Below, piece after piece: positions 31,275 through 49,000 of a stretch of DNA of 64,000 nucleotides (position 1 is the first letter of the stretch; each line of letters opens with the position of its first letter). This DNA comes from Ectocarpus siliculosus (lineage: Eukaryota; Sar; Phaeophyceae; Ectocarpales; Ectocarpaceae), in NCBI GenBank assembly GCA_000310025.1, contig FN649742.1, positions 937,692-1,001,691 on the forward strand, read 5' to 3'. Position numbers and translations under genes: made by a program. The notes beneath the pieces were generated by a model. That model saw only the letters and a program-made list of their open reading frames with translations, had not been told where the DNA came from and ran no database searches.

Positions 31275-31731
31275 TCAGCAGCCGCTCTCGATCTGCCACT
31301 TGAGGTACTTGATCCTTTCCTGCGTGCGGTTAACCTTGGCGGCGTCGCCGGAGTACATCGCTTTGGTGCGGAGGCGCGCGAGACGCCTGAGCTCCGTCAT
31401 CTGCGTCGGGGGTAAGTACCGCGCACAGGAGCGATACAAGACTGTGTGAGATTTTCCGCGTGGACCACCAATCTTCAGCTTCGCGAGTGAGAGGCACGAA
31501 ACATGGGGCTTCGGCTTTCGGTGGTTTAGGGCAATCAACGTAGTTGTAGATCGTTTTTTTTTTGCATGTTGCCTTCAACGGATAGTGTAGACAACAAATA
31601 CCAGTTGCAAGAGAGTGATCGGCGCGCATCGCTCATTCCTTCCCACCCATGCGTTTCCCCCCTCAATTGTTGATGGCCTCTTTACTTGTACCTGCTCTGC
31701 CGAAGCGCCGACCATGGGCACGCTGAAGTCG

Positions 31732-31763
<32 letters not shown>

Positions 31764-34700
31764 CTCGTCGTCCTCAGCTGAAACATGGCGACGGAAGTCA
31801 TCGTATCATATGATACGCATGGAAAGAGCAACAGAGAACGGTGGCGAACCGAGGAAACTGTGATAATTATGCCGAGCACGACGGGATTCGTTGCTCTTCG
31901 GGGAATCTCTCCAGTAACACGACTCCAGGGTTGTTCGTTGCTGCCTGGACAACCACCGCCACCACGGATGCTGGGCATGTCCATATCTTGATATCTTTTG
32001 AGGCTCGACAAAACAGAGAAAGAAAACAACGGTGCCTCTTCCGGCCCTTACCATACGGCGGGGGAGGGGCGCGGGTGTGGTTCTGCGGGGGTGGCGCTTG
32101 GTGACCCTGAACCTGGGCCATCATCCCCCTGCCTAGCATTCCCATGCCGGCCATCAGGCTTGCCATTGGGTCGACCGGGGGAGCGCTCGACACGTAGTAC
32201 ACTTGGGGGGGGGGCGGGGGCGCCCTGGTACAACTGCGGCGGCGGTGCCCCCCCGTACTGTCCGGCGAGGGGGGGCTCCGCCGCCTCCTCCTCCTCCGTC
32301 ATGGAATTCGTCGTAGGATGGCGGAGGCGGCATCTGCGCCTTGGCCTCTTCCTGCCGGTCCTGGCTGTCCACGACTACTTCGTCTTCGGCGCAAGGCTCG
32401 TCCTCGGGGAGCCCTTCGAACGCCTCCGCCAGCTTGTCCCTGGGAGTCAAGACGAGGCATGGAGGAGGTTAAAAATACGGTGTCAAAATATTTTTTTCCC
32501 ATAAACGCGTGTGGCGGGCACGATCTCACCCAGGCTTTGTTCTGGGTGTACGTGCAACACCATGGTACCAGCGCGAAGGACGAGGATGCGGAAGTATCGA
32601 GCGTCGTCCCAAGAAAACCGCTCGCTTACACCATGCAACACGGGCATCTTCTCGTGTGTCTGATCTCACCCGGGGTGCACGGGGTCAGAGGAGCACAGCC
32701 AGGTGAGCACGGCGCGGCGGAACTTTCCGCTGGTCTCGGTCTTGAGGGCCGCCATTAGGCTCTCCCCGTAGTTGGTGAGGAAGAGCTCGGCGATCTTTTC
32801 GACCATCGGCTTGTCATTGCCGCCGAGGACCCTTGCGATCGCGCTCTTGTCGGACGAGATGCCCTTGAAGGCCGTCTTGAGCAGGAGGGCGTAGTAGGCG
32901 ATGGGGTCCTTGATCATGGCCAGGAGCATGGTCTCGAAGCTTCCCGAGCACTCCTTCTTGATGGCCTTCTCGAGCGACATGCCGTGGTTGCGCTCGTAGT
33001 ATTGGCGGATCAGCTCTATCTGCGGGCGGGAGGCCTGCGTGAGGATACGGATGAAGGTCTTCTTGTCGGTGCCGAGCCTCTTCCCGATGCCCGCGGCGTG
33101 GAGCTCCTGGGCCTGCTGCACCGCCAGGCCTTCGTCCACGACGTCCTCCTGCCTCTCCCCCCGGATGAGAGCCAACACGACGTCCTCCATGGCGCCGCTG
33201 AGCTCCGACTTGAGGCGGTCGATCAGGGGCTTGGGGTACTTCTGGTCGTGGCGGGCCTTTGCGGCCAGGATGCGGGCGTTGCTCAGGGGGGCGAGGGTGG
33301 AGATGATGAGGCCTTCGTTAGTGCCGAGACCATCCATGGCTTTCTTGAGCATCAGGGCGTCGAAGTCGGCCTCGGGCAGCAGCACGTACGACAGGAAGTC
33401 CCTGTTGCCATTGGCAGCAGCAACAAAACACACGAGCAGAGAACAATTGATTGATCGATGAAGGGGGGCTTCCGCCAACAAGAAATGAAGCGTACAGTCG
33501 TTCAGTTCAGTCCCTGCAAAAGGACACGTCATAAAGGAAGAGAAAACATGTAAGGGTTGTGGCGGATCGTTGCGGATCGTTGTAGGCTAAGCAAAACCTT
33601 GCAGCCACCAACAAAAGGAGATACAACAAGAACCGAAGACCGAACACGCCCAGGCTACTGCTGATGCTCGAATTGATGCTAACAGCTATCTGGTGCGAGG
33701 TTTCCCGAACTCCTGTTGCGGCCTACAACGTTGCTGCTGAAGCAGGTAGACCACTCAATTTTGCATCAATGTTTACGAGTGGAATCTTCTCTTTTGGAAC
33801 GGCAACAAAAACAGGTCCTCGCCAGGAGAGGTATCAAAGCTGAACGAGGTTCTCTGTCAGAATGCTAAACAGCTCTAAATACCATACCACCGACAAAACA
33901 AGCGCCACCGCTCTCGCCAAAGGGAAGGGGAAACAGACGAAAAAAGTGATTGAGCTCACTTGTAGACCCCGAAGCACTCGTACTTCACTTGCGCCTCTAC
34001 CGACATGCCGTAAAGGGAGTGGTAGTACTGGTCCACGCGCGCCAGGTGCTTCTTGGTGCGGCCGCAGATGATGGAAACCAGGCGGGAGTCGTTCGTGCCG
34101 AGACCCTTGCATGCCTCGCGAATGTCTCCGCAGTCCGCCTATAGCAACAGAACGACAACGGGAATAGCGGCGCGGGGGGGGGGGGGCGTACTCCTGTTTC
34201 CAATGCCTTAACTGTAAAAACATTGGACCACGCAACCTTGAGAGGCAACAGGGGTATAGCCATCACTACATACTGGCCGTCACGGGGAAACGTCAGGCAA
34301 CAACCCCAACCTGACAGATGAAGTCCTTGATGTTGGCGCGCTCTTGCAGGAGAGCCTTGGCGAGGTCTTTCTGCTTGGAAGGGTCGTTCTCGGCTAGCGC
34401 CTTCTCCGTCACGTACTCCATGCCGCCGGTGGGGTCGGGGCCAGCCACCCAGCAGAGCGCTGCCTGTTCGTCCCGTGGTTCAAATGCCGCGTCGTTCCGT
34501 GTTTGGGATGAGAAGAGAGAGCAAGAGAGAGAGAGAGGCAAGGAGAGAGAGAAAGAAGAAATCAGACAAGAGACACAAGAGAGGCAGAGAGAACAGAGAG
34601 AGTAAAGGGCAACAAACCTAACAACCACCCAATCGTATGCACGGGGATTGTACAAACGCAGCTAAACAAAACAAAATACTCGAATACAAGCGTAAAAAAC

Positions 34701-37700
34701 ACATCAATAGTAACATAGTACGCAAACTTGCGATGTGCATCCAACACGGCAAGATGCCGCCCCCACCCGGACAATAAACACATGCTTGCATACACGCACA
34801 ACCGACGGACCTTCAAGAAAGTGCCGCTGAGCTCGTCCTTGAGGTCCTCGACCAGAGAGTTCCCGTAGGTCTGCAGGTAGTAGGCGGCCACCGCGCCCAT
34901 CTTCCTCTTGTCGGTGCCGCCCAGCAGCCGCGTGACGCGGTCGTTGTCCGTGCCCACACCCTCGAAGGCCTTGAAGAGAGCGTACGCCGTGTACGCCTGT
35001 CGCGTGTAGCCAAACGTGCGTGCGGCGGAAGGAGGTGGGGGTTTGAAAAGCGAGGAGGCTGATGCTGTGAATTTCATTTCGACCTGGCCATATTCTGCCA
35101 CACCCCTTTCCATCCTGTCTGTCTCCAAGTCCTGTCTGTCTCTAGCGCTCTATAATATTGTTTACTGCCTCTATAATAGGCTACTTTTTCAGCTAAACGA
35201 ACTTGGTCTCTGGCTGCCCATTCTTGGACGGGATATCAAGACAAGCCGTGCCTAGCACCCCGGTTAAGCCGTAGGCGTGCACGGAAACAAATGGACAGAA
35301 GCCCGAGGCCACACTTTGCTTACCTCAGACGTGGGGAAGAGACAAGCCAGCAGGCACTTCTTGTAGGTTCCGCTGCACTCCTTGCTGACGGCCTTCATGA
35401 GAGACATGCCGTGGTTCTGCTCGTACGCCGCCTTGATGGCCTAGAAAAAACCCAGAAAGGAAAGGAAAAACTCCCCGGATAAGAGAAAACATCGTTCCCC
35501 GTCATGTCTGTACGCAGGCTCACCCAAGGACGATATCAGCAGTCGGGAGGACCAAGACAACATGGGTTGCAGTTTTGAGCGGCAGTGCAATATTGTTCAA
35601 GGATATTTGACGGTGGCCGAGAGATCGAAAGCAGTGGGAGCAACAAACCATGACCTACGAACACGTTATCTGCACCTGTTAACCCCTTTGGGTCTAGCTG
35701 GGTTTTTTTGTTGCGGCAAAAAAAAAAAAGGAGGAGAGAGTGCGGGAGAGAGAGACAGAAGTACAGCAGAAAGAGACGAGTGTACTTCTGTAGACGTAAC
35801 AGCTATCTCCGCCCATAGGCCATGAGGGCTGCCCGCGACAGGACGGTGGGCACAGACAGGGTCATAGAAGGGTTGATGCGTGGTCGCGGTGCGGTCGGCA
35901 GGGCAGGTTAGGCTTGTAGACCTTGAAAAGATCAGTCGTCAAGCCGCCTAAACTACTCTTTTTTCAGTAATTCAAACTATCAGTGAAAATGATCATTGAG
36001 TGGGCCTGTAGACCCATAGCTGGTTCTTCTCTGTCCCCTCCCCAATGTGAGCCCTGCCGGCTCACTACATACAGCTCCTGTGATTTTCCCACAATTCCCA
36101 CAAACACGCAAGCACACCAGCACACACCTACCTTTGCATCAGTGGCTCTCTAGGTTCGGGCGAGGGTATGTGTGGGGCTATGATGATAGCGTATGTGTTA
36201 CTACAGTACTGCAGTATGTTGGACTCGTCTACATATGCTGCTGCTGCTGTGTAGCATAGCTGCTGATATTATGACTGCTGGATCTCGGGAGTGTACGATT
36301 TTCAAATTTGGAGGATATGCAGCATAACACGATATCCTGGCCTGGTTGGGCTTGAAGTGCCCCTTTTCGCTGTCCTCCTTTGTTTGCGTTTGTGGCTTGC
36401 TAGATTCGGGCGAGGGCATGTATGTGGAGCTATTGATGTGTGTCTCTGCGAAAGGATATGGGGAGAGATTCATGGTGGCATTCGCATTTATTTAGAGCAG
36501 TGTGCATTTTTCGAATTTTGGCCGTTTCAGAGACCTTGATAATACCCGCTGGCACTGTAACGTATTTTCATTGATCACCGGGTACGCGGTCGATGGGAAG
36601 AATATAGGCACACCTACCTATTGACTTGCCAACACCTGGCGTGGAGGGACACAGGGCGGCAACTCCATGGCATGCCACAGCACCAGCATTGCAAATGATC
36701 AATCAATGATCTGTCAGGACGCCTGTAGACCCAAAAGGGTTAATAACAACCAGATTTCACGTACTGCGGCATCACCGACGCCTTGCCAAACGTGACAAAA
36801 CTACCAATATCATAAGCAGCAACAACAAGCCCACCTGGATCTGCGCGCGCGACTGACGTCCGAAGATGTCGAGGAACACGTCGTCGTCCGTGCCGATCAG
36901 CTTTTGGACGCCTGCCGCGTGCAAAGCGGCCGCCTGTTCATTGGCCAGGTCGCAGTCCACCTGCAAGCAAAAAAAGCGCCACGGGGCCCCCGAGCGCCGT
37001 AGTATTATAGACCGTGCCGCAGTACACCAACAGTTTCATGCGTTTGCTTGTCGATAAATCTTGGGTTGTGTTTGTGGTGGTCGTTGCTTCTCGAACCCCA
37101 GGGTTTGCCAGTAGGAACAACGCCAAAATGAAACGTTAGTCCTATCATTACGAGATTGCCGTATCCGACCAAAAACAAAAATGACACGTTGTAAATGTTG
37201 TCCGTGTTTGTTGGACGGGAAACGAAGCAGCAGCAACAACAACCAGGACTGCATGCATATCTGCCGCGACTCTGAGTCAACTTACCTCCTCCGACTCGCT
37301 CTTGTGGCCCATGAGCATCATCACCAGGATCTTGCGAGCGTTGCCGCTCAGCTCCGAGTTCAGGTTGTCGAGCATGGACTTGTTGTTCTGCGTGCACGTA
37401 TTATAGCAGGTTGTGTTTCGAATCGGCCGTGGATTGGTCACACACACAAAGGAAGGAAGGACAAGGACGAGGTTCGGATCAAGGAACGGGGAAAGAAAAA
37501 GGAACCAAATTTGAGATGCCGAGCGAGGACGGTAACAAGGACGATGAGGAGAATCACGAGGGGAAAAGGATACGACAATTGGTTGTTGGAGGCGACCGGT
37601 GGCGAGACACGCACCAAATCAAAACAAAATACCGAAAGCACACAATGTTTGACACGAAAGAGGCCCATATTTTGGAGTAGAGGGCAAGAACAGCAGTGGC

Positions 37701-40700
37701 GTCATAAACATCACGCAACAAGGCGAATTGGTCGATTTAAGATAGAGAAACAGAGAAACATGGTATGAAGTGGGGAATAGGAAACTAACAATGGCGCCAT
37801 ACTGTAGTGCTGGTGACACCGCAACGAACTGGGAATGGTGAGAAATCTAGCAAACAGCAACTAACTGCAAAATGGGTCTGTTGCGATTATGTTATGGGCC
37901 AAGCTTTTCGTGCCCACATTGTACGGAGCTCCCACTGGGTAGGAAGGTCCCCGACGCGTATTCGCGGAAAAGGGGGTTGATTCGAGGCAACGCGCTCAAC
38001 AGAGCACAGACACTCGCCCCATCGTATTGTAAAAGCGAATCTCAATTCACTCTCGGTTGTTTGGTGCTCTTCTCCTCTTGTTGTACGTGTGTGTGATTTG
38101 GTCCCATCGATTCTGGGCGCCAGTCTACACTATTCGGTGGTATATGTTTCACGCACCAGCCAGGGTCACACAGGGAGGAGGGTAAGCACTGGCGATTTTC
38201 AAGCATGGCAAAATACTTACACAAGTACGGGACAAGAAGAGAAGGCTTTCGCTATCAACAACGTACGAGCAACCGAAACGAACATCGTGATACGGCACGT
38301 GTTTCGTCGGATGGGGCGTGAGTATTCTCTCTTGTCGCACCTTGGCCTCCCATTTCTTCTTGATGGCCGCCAACTGAGCGTTGGTGTGCGTGTGGACGAG
38401 GTCGATCAGAACGTGGTCTTTGGTGCCAAGCCCTGAGTGGAGTTCAAGACACGGACAGAACCGGCGAGAACGCGGAACACAGGCATGTGAAGAGAAAACG
38501 AATGCGCGTGTGAGAGAGGCGCGCGTGGGGGTGGAACACGGAGGCGAAGAAGCGAATACGGGTCAGAGCGTGCGTGCGTGCGTGCGTGCGTGAGAGAGCA
38601 ACGCCAACAATCGCGACTGCACAGCTTCCGCAACGACCACAAAAAACAACACGCAAGATTCGTTCGCTTCGCTTCAGTCGTGCCTGTCTGCCGCACTTAC
38701 CCTTAGTGGCGATGGTGTACGCTTCCGCTCCGAAGGCGTCCACCTCGAGGAGGGAGTACGTGATCATCTTGCCGAAGTTGCCGCTGACATCGCTCTTGAC
38801 AGCCTTGAGCAGGCTGCTCTCGTGCTGGTGGTTTCATGCGCGTTCGGATCATTGGCACACGGTTCGGGTTCAGGAAAACTTGGAAGAATGCGCTTCGTCA
38901 CCACGAGGTGGCTGCTTGCTCTCGCTCGTGTTTGGCTGTTTTCACTTGAATGGGCTCGTTGTTATATGACAGACCTTTTTACCACTAACCCCCGCTCTTG
39001 TCTCCGCTTAGGTCAAACGAGAGACAAGCACGTGCAGGCAGTAGAAAACTGGCGATGGTAAAAAAAAGACCCAGCTCCCGAACTCAAAAGGACCCCCCCC
39101 CCCCCCCCAAATCCGATGACTCCCAGAAAAAACGCCCAACTTGAAAAAAGGAACGAAACAACACGCAAAGCCAAAATATCGATTCCCATGTCAATCCCCT
39201 TGCCGTCTCGTGGTAGAGCAAGTCCACGGCGTCGATCTGCTTCTTGGTGCGGTTGCACAGCGTGTTGATGAGGTTGCCTTCTTTGGTGCCGATGCCCTTG
39301 ATTGACCGATGAACGACGTCTACATCTCTCTCGGCCACGAATCCCTGTTGCATCGCGACAAAGACGAGTGGCGGCAGTAGTAGTGATTAGACTAGGTGCT
39401 GGTGCATGTGGCCGAAACGGCAGATTTTCAGTCTGGGTCACCAGGGCAATCGATGAACCCATCTACTCTATTCAGTAGTATTACTGTAGATTACTGCTGT
39501 AGATAAGAGGCTGAGAGATGACACCCCCCATAGACCGACCTTAAAAGCTCGATTGCTCCACAACCACGGTGTGTGTGGAAAGAGCTCGATACTTGAAGTT
39601 CTACGGAAATCCCTCGACTAGATGTTTCGAAAACCATCGTTTTTGGTGTTGGCACAACCATGGTTAGGGAGCAATCGAGCTTTGAAATTCGGTGTAGAGG
39701 GGGTGCCATCTCTCCGCCTCTTACGGTACTTCATCCCTTTGGAGTCTCGACACACTCTTCGTTGTCCACGAGAATATTTTCTTGGACGCTCTTCCACTAA
39801 ATACATGTAGCACATTGTGGCCTAGAAGACGAAGATATGTTTTGCTGTTTCAAAAAAAATATGCTTGGCATCTCAGATAGTGAGTATTCAGCGAATTGGC
39901 CGAACTCAGCCCATCGGTCAGGAACAGAACACCGGCCGTAAATTGTACCGAAACAAGGAAGCACCCGTCTCCAATCTCCGATGACTGATGGGGAATGGTT
40001 GTGGTCTGAGGAACCAACAACCGTATTGGAGACAAGCACCATGCGGCTATTCTCTCAGAGGTGAGGTTGATAACCGACGAGGAAAACCAAGAACGCAGAC
40101 ACCATCCATGCGGTGGAACTAGAGCAGTAGTACCTACGCAACAGCAGTTTTGCTTTCACCCTCTCACACGGCACAGCATTACTGCTGTGCTATGATACAT
40201 AAGTTGTCAGTGCTTACTGCTGGGGCGTGCACGCAACTTTTTGTTAATGGTCTCCACCCATCTTCCCGGTTCTGTTGGGGAAAAAAAAACACCACCTGAC
40301 GTCGTTCGTGATGAAAAGATGGAAGAGGACTTGTCCCGTACATCCATCTTATACTAGAGCTAAAATCGATATTGTATTGTACAAAGGCAGTGGATCGTCC
40401 CGCCAACGCAACATGGTCGACATGTCACACTACACACACCAGCTGTTGACATCACACCGGTGTTCTTCGCGGATGTGGGACGTTCGGAGCAGCTGTTTGT
40501 GATGAAATGACCCGTACACAGATGCATGCAAACTTTCTCTCTTGCTTGCCATAGACATGTACCCACGAATTTCAGTGGCGTAGAGTCATCAGTTGTGGAC
40601 ATCTATGCCCTCTACGCGCCGACGCTGGTGTGTGGTGGCTCACCGCCGGAAATGTCGAGAAATTTTACAAATCTATCTGCTGGTATTTATCTAGCAGCGG

Positions 40701-40947
40701 CGCCTGATGCGGTCTCGCCGCGGGATGTTACCGTTCCTGCTGCGGGTGTGGAACGCCCGACGCCGAGAATATTGCTCATGCGCACGATAGCACGAGAGCG
40801 CGCCTGAGTTGCAAAGCAAGGTCTCCCTGCTTGAGACTGAAGAAGCGAACGCACCTTGAGGCAACTGATCTCCTCCTGGACTACCGCGATGATCTCGCCA
40901 ACGTTGTTGGCAGTGTCGATGTGCTCGGGGGTGTATTCGGTCGTCAT
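31275..40947 (-). CDS. Annexin with eight repeats and an acidic/proline-rich C-terminal tail
   Basis: Annexins bind acidic phospholipid membranes in a calcium-dependent way. Fourteen exons, 5' to 3': 40855-40947, 39204-39344, 38701-38824, 38341-38432, 37286-37387, 36835-36960, 35324-35440, 34811-34996, 34311-34463, 33960-34138, 32670-33401, 32052-32439, 31692-31777, 31275-31400; about 880 residues. Eight annexin repeats are seen through their type II calcium loops, in order: GIGT, GLGT, LIGT, GVGT, then GLGT, GLGT, RLGT, GISS. Repeats 1-4 and 5-8 form two cores, with a short linker exon (34311-34463) between, as in vertebrate annexin A6. Repeats 6-8 sit in one 732-bp exon, whereas repeats 1-4 are split over seven. 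The tail has Pro/Gly/Tyr-rich sequence, a run of Asp and a basic C-terminus. The second exon needs a GC donor, and the tail exon shows two one-base frame offsets in C tracts. The family call is secure. Confidence 0.9.
34515..34605. repeat. GA-rich simple sequence in an annexin intron
   Basis: Imperfect GA/GAAA-rich tract on the plus strand (CT-rich on the coding strand) inside the annexin intron between exons 34811-34996 and 34311-34463. It lies just upstream of the latter's acceptor in gene orientation and could act as an extended polypyrimidine tract. No gene content. Confidence 0.8.
35683..36739. mobile_element. piggyBac-like non-autonomous DNA transposon (MITE-like)
   Basis: A 1,057-bp element lies in the annexin intron between exons 36835-36960 and 35324-35440. 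It is bounded on both sides by TTAA (35679-35682 and 36740-36743), the target-site duplication of the piggyBac superfamily. Its ends are inverted repeats starting with CCC, as is usual for that family: left CCCCTTTGGGTCTA, right (reverse complement) CCCTTTTGGGTCTA, 13 of 14 bases alike. No transposase frame is present, so it would need enzyme from elsewhere. A word shared with the right end recurs inside at 36004-36016. The near-perfect TTAA and ends suggest no great age. Superfamily assignment rests on ends and target site only. Confidence 0.72.
36146..36446 (+). repeat. Internal direct repeat of the piggyBac-like element
   Basis: Two similar segments of about 45-50 bp begin near 36148 and 36400, each carrying a TTCGGGCGAGGG core followed by a TATG-rich stretch. 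They lie about 250 bp apart inside the transposon-like element and are probably part of its original structure. Confidence 0.55.
38568..38592. repeat. (GCGT)n microsatellite
   Basis: About six GCGT units in the annexin intron between exons 38701-38824 and 38341-38432. No coding meaning. Confidence 0.9.
39093..39108. repeat. Homopolymer C tract
   Basis: Sixteen consecutive C in the annexin intron that follows the second exon. Similar C/G tracts recur through the window (about 547-574, 34172-34186, 46894-46915, 57100-57115, 57299-57308, 62226-62240). Length calls of such tracts are error-prone, which matters for the C tracts inside the annexin tail exon. Confidence 0.9.
39544..39683. repeat. 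Inverted repeat (27-bp arms), possible small MITE or hairpin
   Basis: Left arm 39544-39570 and right arm 39657-39683 are reverse complements at about 24-25 of 27 positions. Both share the 16-bp word AAAGCTCGATTGCTCC (right arm read in reverse), with an 86-bp loop between. The structure lies in the first intron of the annexin gene. No clear target duplication was found, so it may be a short terminal-inverted-repeat element or a chance stem. Confidence 0.6.
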
Positions 40948-45912: not shown

Positions 45913-46025
45913 GCACAAATGCCCAGAAAAAATTATCCCGCGTCACCCCCATCGCATGATGCTTGCTTTCGGACCGCACACACCACTGCACCTCTGTCTT
46001 GCTCTATCGTACACGGCAGACTACC
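45913..46025. promoter_or_regulatory. Very short bidirectional promoter region
   Basis: Only 113 bp separates the inferred ATG of the beta-hydroxylase gene (minus) from that of the NUMOD3-repeat gene (plus). If both starts are right, both transcripts start within or very near this stretch and share promoter elements. No standard core element is obvious by eye. An upstream start for either gene would shrink the gap further. Confidence 0.5.
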
Positions 46026-49000
46026 ATGCGACGGCCTAGGCCTACTGCCGCGAATGAACCTGACTACCTCGTTCGGTCTCTTGCTTGCGCGACCCGGCTG
46101 AATCGCTCGTGGACACTGGCGGTGCTGCTGACTGCAGCTCTGTTGGTGGTCAGTCCAGACGCCGCATCATCTGCCGAAACGCACGCACGACGTGGGAAAG
46201 GTCAGGGTGTTGGCCTCGCTGCGTTCACTGCCCCTCTATCCTCCCCAGCCGTGTGGGCCTCCTTGCGAAGAGAGAATGAACAGCTTCATCGAGTGTGCGG
46301 CTCCACAGGTCGTGGTCCTGGCGGCGCGGCACATCGTCGCTTTGCAACAACATCAACAGCAGGCACGCTAGCGGGGCTTCAACACGACGACGACAGCAGC
46401 AGCAGTAGGCGGCAGCAGGGCGTGGCGCGGTTGTTACAGCTCCAACGTCGTCACTGCAGTAGCAGTAGCAGCAGCAGCAGCAGCAGCAGAAGGGTGTCGA
46501 CGTCTTGGCCGCTGTTTCAAGCCGCCCGTGCCGTCGGCGTCGGCGTAAACTCGACCGCGGCGGGCACAGAGGTAGCGGGAGAGGTTCCACCATTGACGAC
46601 GACAGAGATGACGAACAAGGAACAAACTCTACGGCCGTCCAAAGGCAAGGAGTCTACGAGCGTAGAGGGCAAGGAAGCCACGGTCATCATCACCGAGGCC
46701 GGGGGCAGGCCGCACACGGTGGCGAGCAAGGCCAAGATCTCGGCCGCCAACAAGGGCAAGAAGCCGTGGAACGTCGGGGTGGGGCACTCGGAAGAGACGA
46801 GGCGCAAGATTGCGGAGGGGGCGAGGAACGCGGCGAGGAAGAGGAGAGAGAAGACCGCCGAGTCTCTGGTGAGCGAACCCTGCTGCTGCTGAGGGGGGGG
46901 GGGGGGGCGGGGGGTAAAGCTCCCGTTTGTTGTTCTATGTGGCTGGCTGCGTGTATTGGTCGTGTGCTGGCTTCCTCCAGAAACAAAAGGATCGCATATA
47001 GGTCGTTGCGTGCCATGTTTTGGGACGGTGTCACTGGTACGCATATGCGTCATGTTCCCACCAGAGCGGTACTCCGTGAACCGCTCTGCTGGTGTTTGGT
47101 GGCCTTGGTATCGGGGTCGGTATCGACCACGCTGCCCTGGCCTGGCCTTGGCTTTGCGACAGGTAAATGTTTGTCGAGGCGATCAGGTTTTGGGGTGCGT
47201 ATTGCGTTTGGGCTAGGAGTTTATTCCGACCGCCTCGCGAGCGAAGCGAGCCTAGAAATCGCCCAAGTCGTACGTAGAATAACGGTGGTGTCATCATCGT
47301 GTATTGTGCGTCCAACTTGGTCGATATACTGCGCCTCTGCACGGTAAGTGTTTTTGGGGGCTGGCAAAACCAAGCGCTGGGGAATTACCTGTGATAACTT
47401 GGCCACGTTCGACAACGGTCTATCCCTGGTGTAGCGGTGCCCATGGGACGGCAGGCATTTGTCTATCCAGTGTGAGCGCGAACCATGCAACCACTGCTGG
47501 CTCGTGCACATCAGACGGCACCATGGCCTTCCCCCGTCAACAGAGCTCACAGGCATCTCACCCCGAACAAGGGGCGGAAAATAGCCCGCTAGACCCCTCT
47601 CCCCCGCATTCCCCTCTCCCTCACGGCACGTACTCTGTCGCTCTCGCTCGCTTCGGTCGCCCCGAAACAACGGTATAGGGCATGACCCTGGAGGAGTACG
47701 AGGAGATGAAGCGGCGGAAGCCCGCCGGGAAGCGGGACCCGACGGTCACCGAAGAGACGAGGAAAAAAATCAGCGCTCGGCTCAAGGCCAAGTGGCAAGA
47801 CCCAAGCTACCGGGAGCGGCGCAAGCAGTGCATGCCCAACCGCAAGGGCGTCCCGCACACGGAGGAGACCAAGGCCCGCATCTCGGCGGCGGTCAAGAAC
47901 AAGTGGAACGACCCGGTGTACCGAGAAAAGGTTAGGCGGGGAAAGGATGAGAGAGGTTGGGGGGCGCTCATTTGCTGACAGGCTCGGAATTACGGCTTTC
48001 GCGTGCTTTTCGTCTAAACGGGGTGCGCTAGCTTTCGCGAGGGACGCAGTGCGGGAGGGGGTGCAGCTCCTTCGCGCGCTGGTAGGGTTGTCTAGTTGTG
48101 TGGAGCCACAGGAGGTCTTGCTTCATGTTGGCACGCGTGTTCTGTACGCACTACGGCAGTGTTTCCTTTGCCGACGTGTAGCATTGGGTGAGCAACTCGC
48201 ACGGACGCCCCCCTGCTCTATTTGGACAAGCACCCCTGCTGTTTTTCGGGCGTGCACAGTTTTTCGCCGCTGTCTTGCTCTCTGGCTCTGTCTCGCCTGC
48301 TCTGCACTACCTCAAAAGGACGTCGCCTGGTCGCAACGCCTAACCTTAGCCGAATCTCTGCCGCCTCGGGTGTTGTCGTCTGTTGTTGTCGTGGCCAAAA
48401 ATGATGGTGGCGGCAGATTACGAACATGGAACGGACCGAAGAGACACGGGCAAAGATCGGCCGAATCATCCGTGAGCAGTGGGCCAACCCAGTGACTAGA
48501 AAGGTGAGCGATCCCTCCAGGGTAGCCCGCAAGTGTTCACCTGAAAAGTGGAGGGCGAAACACCAGGGCGGCTCCCTTGCCCTGCACCATTGACGAAAAC
48601 AACGAGTGCATCAATCGCCCCTTTTCTGGTCCCAAGCTGGCTCTGACTTGTTTTTACTCGTCCAAACGTCATGAGTCCATTTCCTGATATTCAACAGCTG
48701 TATGGTGCCGTGCCGTGCTCTGCACAAGCCTACTGCTGCGCACTTGTTTGTGGTGGCACACCTGCCCACTCCTCAACACTGCTCGTATTTTGTCTGCCCC
48801 CCCTCCCCCCCTACCCCTTTAGGAGCGCCTGAAGAACATGGCTCCCCGTACCGAGGAGCACAACCAGAAGATCGCGGCATCGGTGAGGTCCAAGTGGTTA
48901 GACCCGGAGTACAAGAAGAGGACCTCCGAGGCGATGAGGAAGGCGGCCCACGACCGCATCATCGCCAGCGGTGGGGTGCCGAAGCCGCCCAGAGTGCGGC

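Follow-up and report, generated by a model that had tools for sequence, protein, structure and literature searches.

A 64,000-nucleotide stretch of the Ectocarpus siliculosus genome (contig FN649742.1, positions 937,692 to 1,001,691; hereafter the window) was found to carry a gene for an annexin with eight repeats in two four-repeat cores. The evidence indicates that this brown-algal protein is probably real, and that it probably stems from a four-repeat core that was duplicated independently of the lineage of vertebrate annexin A6. The eight-repeat layout is already known; of interest here are that it arose separately and that it seems to be the only annexin form in this genome.

The gene lies on the minus strand and was modeled with 14 exons, from an ATG at 40947 to a stop codon that ends at 31275 (Table 1). 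Of the 13 introns, 12 are bounded by GT-AG; the one after exon 2 (39204) has GC-AG, and the length of exon 2 after joining agreed with the repeat alignment. Exons 1-11 gave 681 codons without a stop. When the spliced protein was searched against Pfam, the Annexin family (PF00191) matched in eight stretches with an E value of 1.8e-117 and 383.9 bits, compared to a cut-off of 25 bits, the best stretch falling in exon 11. Three other families were matched at E 0.1 to 0.7 only. The annexin match is far beyond chance, and the eight repeats placed here by the first-pass annotation are confirmed by the spliced model (40947-31275) together with the eight Pfam stretches.

Table 1. Exons of the eight-repeat annexin gene (positions in the window)
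Feature	Position	Strand	Content
Exon 1	40855..40947	-	N-terminus, 31 aa; ATG, donor AAG|gtgcgt
Exon 2	39204..39344	-	Most of repeat 1 (KGIGT); acceptor cag, GC donor ACG|gcaagg
Exon 3	38701..38824	-	Repeat 1 end and repeat 2 start
Exon 4	38341..38432	-	Repeat 2 (KGLGT)
Exon 5	37286..37387	-	Repeat 2 end
Exon 6	36835..36960	-	First part of repeat 3 (KLIGT)
Exon 7	35324..35440	-	Second part of repeat 3
Exon 8	34811..34996	-	Repeat 4 (EGVGT)
Exon 9	34311..34463	-	Repeat 4 end and inter-core linker; paralogue linker similar in length (alignment)
Exon 10	33960..34138	-	Repeat 5 (KGLGT)
Exon 11, 732 bp	32670..33401	-	Repeat 5 end, repeats 6 (DGLGT), 7 (KRLGT) and 8 (KGISS); one open frame
Exon 12	32052..32439	-	Pro/Gly/Tyr-rich tail with PPSY; codon scores in three frames, alternative donor
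Exon 13	31692..31777	-	Acidic run (EDDEDDDDDDDDDDDD); one entry phase only keeps exons 13 and 14 open
Exon 14	31275..31400	-	Basic C-terminal segment, end IESGC and stop

The genome (189 Mb, 492 contigs) was searched for further annexins. At E 0.001 the annexin profile gave nine matches, of which seven lie in the window gene and the other two on contig C11. When the protein sequence of repeats 5-8 was used as the query with E values of up to 1 allowed, 15 matches were obtained, all of them at these two loci. The C11 paralogue runs from 4108360 down to about 4095200 and has eight repeats in the same order, spread over 19 exons, with one GC donor. After correction of two paralogue splice sites its protein was collinear with that of the window gene and 41.9% identical over 656 aligned residues. 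In the exon model, repeat 7 of the paralogue (locus L009, about 7000-5950, minus strand) is without its GT loop, either because a short exon escaped the model or because the repeat has truly decayed. Three further exons after the repeats encode a long acidic and then a basic tail. Downstream of that tail, open stretches were observed on the minus strand (L009, about 1910 to 200) with no Pfam match; they are either further paralogue exons or a neighbor gene. No four-repeat annexin was found in the genome by this search, which runs exon by exon and which a diverged one could escape.

Two observations concern the genome and the rest of the window. EsV-1-7 repeats, which are greatly expanded in brown algae and are a hallmark of the group, were positive at 150 of 150 scored places in the genome (150 of 880 candidates scored), and 0 of 14 control genomes had one. 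This abundance lends indirect support to the stramenopile host named in the first-pass annotation and makes a brown alga likely. On the plus strand of the window, an open frame at 45960-46889 has a NUMOD3 motif at residues 249-285 (E 2.3e-17), the only hit among 10 long open frames scanned. NUMOD3 is linked to homing endonucleases, and its presence in an algal nuclear contig is unexpected.

To place the two halves, a tree was built from 12 four-repeat cores: four algal, six animal (both A6 halves, A4, B12, PDB 6b3i and PDB 6tu2) and two plant (D1 and Gh1). The non-algal cores were taken from PDB chains, and the second core of the paralogue was entered without its last helix and with the incomplete repeat 7 of the model. 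In the best tree the four algal halves were split from all eight animal and plant cores at 100/100 support. Trees pairing each algal half with a different A6 half, the arrangement that would have contradicted the first-pass proposal, were rejected (AU p 2.4e-5 and 5.9e-6) at a cost of about 168 log-likelihood units; since this constraint also separates the animal cores from one another, the 100/100 split is less confounded as evidence. Trees sending one half to the plants and the other to the animals were likewise rejected (AU p 7e-11 and 5e-7). Common descent of the algal halves with the A6 halves, by which membership of the A6 subfamily was judged, was found neither in the AU tests nor in the tree.

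These findings bear out the earlier proposal of two four-repeat cores formed by internal duplication apart from A6, and the suggested comparison of the halves with each other and with vertebrate annexins brought the algal halves together. Because the algal cores split off at 100/100 and the A6 pairing is rejected, the doubling took place independently of A6 within the limits of the animal and plant sample. As the tree sets animal and plant cores beside those of this one alga, with annexins of other stramenopiles, of oomycetes and of fungi outside its sample, the doubling may be older than the brown algae. Searches with the four algal cores confirmed no relative in viral contigs (72 pattern matches) or in prokaryote genome contigs (32 pattern matches), negatives that say little because these collections are not composed of algal nuclear genomes.

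The timing of the doubling relative to the split of the two algal genes was less sharply marked. A single doubling before the split gave an AU value of 0.44, and the branches among the algal cores were weak (43/53 and 51/63). We consider it unlikely that each gene doubled its own core after the two had separated. That history was not rejected (AU 0.20), and the identities between N- and C-terminal cores within a gene (38% and 41%) are near those of the N-N and C-C comparisons between genes (41% and 44%), but it requires two events with an identical outcome and the identities tilt slightly against it. It is very unlikely that two adjoining four-repeat genes were wrongly merged into one model: each half is indeed a complete four-repeat core, but the exon carrying the linker between repeats 4 and 5 (34463-34311) is in frame at both splices, and the second locus has eight repeats in the same order, also with an in-frame linker. 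That the window gene belongs to the lineage of vertebrate A6, whether inherited or transferred, can be practically discounted: the algal halves stand apart from both animals and plants at 100/100, and the A6 pairing carries the cost given above. The A6 chains are the best PDB match of each half by total score, but for the first half this lead comes from two cores summed (per core, 134.7 bits for 6b3i vs 102.1 and 101.0), and for the second it is about nil per core (144.6 bits for an A6 core vs 143.0 for 6b3i).

A duplication separate from that of A6 remains the preferred reading, and two further signs once considered for duplication were set aside. The first-pass annotation had paired repeats 3 and 7 (LIGT/RLGT) and repeats 4 and 8 (GVGT/GISS); these motifs are present where claimed, but fail as evidence of duplication, as each repeat position has its own signature across annexins. 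The stretches before repeats 1 and 5 of both genes looked alike by eye; in shuffle tests p was above 0.2 in five of six pairs and 0.03 in one, and a common pre-core helix was dropped as a sign of duplication.

The calcium-site motif GxGT was kept in five of the eight repeats (1, 2, 4, 5 and 6) and was absent from repeats 3 (LIGT), 7 (RLGT) and 8 (GISS), which leaves the second core with two clear calcium-site motifs only. The capping position approximately 38 residues after GxGT, as in a type II calcium site, was D or E in all eight repeats. By eye, in the alignments, the third repeat was also without GxGT in all eight non-algal reference cores, so that repeats 3 and 7 are ordinary in this respect. 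Repeat 8, unlike these two, is not.

Judged from the sequence, Ca2+-dependent and possibly two-membrane binding is the function best suggested, since GxGT is kept in five of eight repeats and the acidic residue in all eight. Upon a rise in cytosolic Ca2+, repeats 1, 2 and 4 of the first core and repeats 5 and 6 of the second would bind acidic phospholipid, the convex core loops presumably forming the binding face as elsewhere in the family. By analogy, the inter-core linker may allow both lobes of one molecule to grip a single membrane, or each lobe a different one. Such a two-core bridging model, with membrane constriction and repair, is proposed for A6 (PMC5696365). Candidate roles in the alga would include vesicle docking, wound sealing and, at the plasma membrane, regulation of wall synthesis, and the Pro-rich and acidic tail would bind partners. 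That the protein mainly regulates wall glucan synthesis rather than bridging membranes seems rather improbable. According to a review (PMC4656261), the annexin of the oomycete Saprolegnia is purified together with (1,3)-beta-glucan synthase and makes the enzyme more active, and oomycetes are stramenopiles too, but that annexin is reported at 34-35 kDa, about half the size of the algal protein.

The exon pattern of the gene is ordinary. Introns 2-8, seven in all, interrupt the span of repeats 1-4. Two of the seven (5 and 7) lie in inter-repeat linkers, so that the six described at first as cutting these repeats is about right. The single exon for repeats 6-8 was found as described (33401-32670). 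When ten introns are placed at random, an intron-free run of 732 of 2045 coding bases has a probability of about 0.13, and the lopsided exons therefore need no special cause. No exact intron position was common to the window core (10 introns) and the paralogue core (18 introns). Two window introns lie within 9 bases of a paralogue intron, compared to a chance expectation of about 1.7 by our own arithmetic. Because the paralogue, the one comparable gene, matches none of the 10 window positions, no ancestral intron is demonstrably lost, and the earlier suggestion that the second half lost introns or came from reverse-transcribed sequence is not supported.

The probability of zero overlap between 10 and 18 retained introns was 8e-8 for 28 ancestral introns, 0.0008 for 40, 0.02 for 60, 0.12 for 100 and 0.38 for 200. 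Complementary loss is improbable for all but a very intron-rich ancestor; independent intron gain, or near-complete turnover, appears to fit better than loss in one half. Introns common between repeats were also considered as a sign of ancestry and rejected: with the corrected paralogue there were three exact coincidences among 27 introns compared to a null mean of 2.35 (p 0.40), and before the splice-site correction two compared to 2.33 (p 0.68). With introns restricted to positions after AG, the null mean in the uncorrected paralogue model was 4.9. No other copy of intron 10 was found in the genome. Intron 1 holds a short element of about 223 bp with terminal inverted repeats (39504-39726), which looks like a member of a MITE family. 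Besides its own copy, the 39 best near-full-length genome matches were 77-83% identical; scoring covered 40 of 425 candidates and gave a total of 137 matching stretches.

Beyond repeat 8 the protein is encoded by three exons, the first Pro/Gly/Tyr-rich, the second acidic and the last basic. The PPSY motif of exon 12 is one that we take to be a WW-domain ligand. No single frame of this exon is open as far as its strongest splice donor. When codon scores were taken in ten-codon steps, one frame was positive over steps one to five, as far as about 32295. A second frame was positive in two of the next three steps, and the third frame in three of the final five, with a negative score at the end. 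The apparent changes of frame lie near runs of C (seven from 32275 and ten from 32214) in a Pro/Gly-rich segment (32295-32201). Assembly errors in the length of these runs are the simplest reading, and a real frameshift is possible. A form of exon 12 ending at 32201 passes in one frame into exons 13 and 14 with no assumption needed, from a donor that looks weaker. The reading frame of the tail is uncertain; the eight-repeat part is untouched by this problem. A genome-wide search for another copy of the tail in which the C-runs could be compared found none, and the 41 residues of exon 14 match nowhere else in the genome. In the paralogue, too, the tail turns from acidic to basic, so both genes may share this arrangement.

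The two-core annexin is usually told as a vertebrate peculiarity. If the separate origin is confirmed, this layout arose at least twice, and a comparison of two independent doublings would make visible the properties borne by the layout itself, such as the bridging of two membranes. Two paralogues with collinear proteins and no common intron positions also make a compact case for intron turnover in brown algae. With slightly less than even confidence, we propose further that every annexin of this genome is double, the four-repeat form having been replaced, and that both genes have since acquired entirely different intron sets.

That annexins occur in stramenopiles was already known (PMC3894181). 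Among the open-access literature matches listed, none described an eight-repeat annexin of brown algae or other stramenopiles; both genes may well be annotated somewhere already. The annexin of Saprolegnia monoica is likewise a stramenopile annexin and was found with a membrane-bound glucan synthase, but its 34-35 kDa fits four repeats, a comparison by size and not by sequence (PMC4656261). Vertebrate annexin A6, or annexin VI (PDB 1m9i, 1avc), shares with the algal protein eight repeats, two cores and a linker between them, and is the best PDB relative of each algal half by total score. In contrast, the algal halves fall apart from the A6 halves in the tree, the algal cores are only 24-32% identical to the A6 cores, and the algal protein has an acidic tail after its second core. 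Annexins A7 and A11 have a four-repeat core with an N-terminal Pro/Gly/Tyr-rich low-complexity segment. The algal protein resembles them in combining an annexin core with such a segment, but here the segment, of uncertain frame, is C-terminal and follows two cores with eight repeats instead of one with four.
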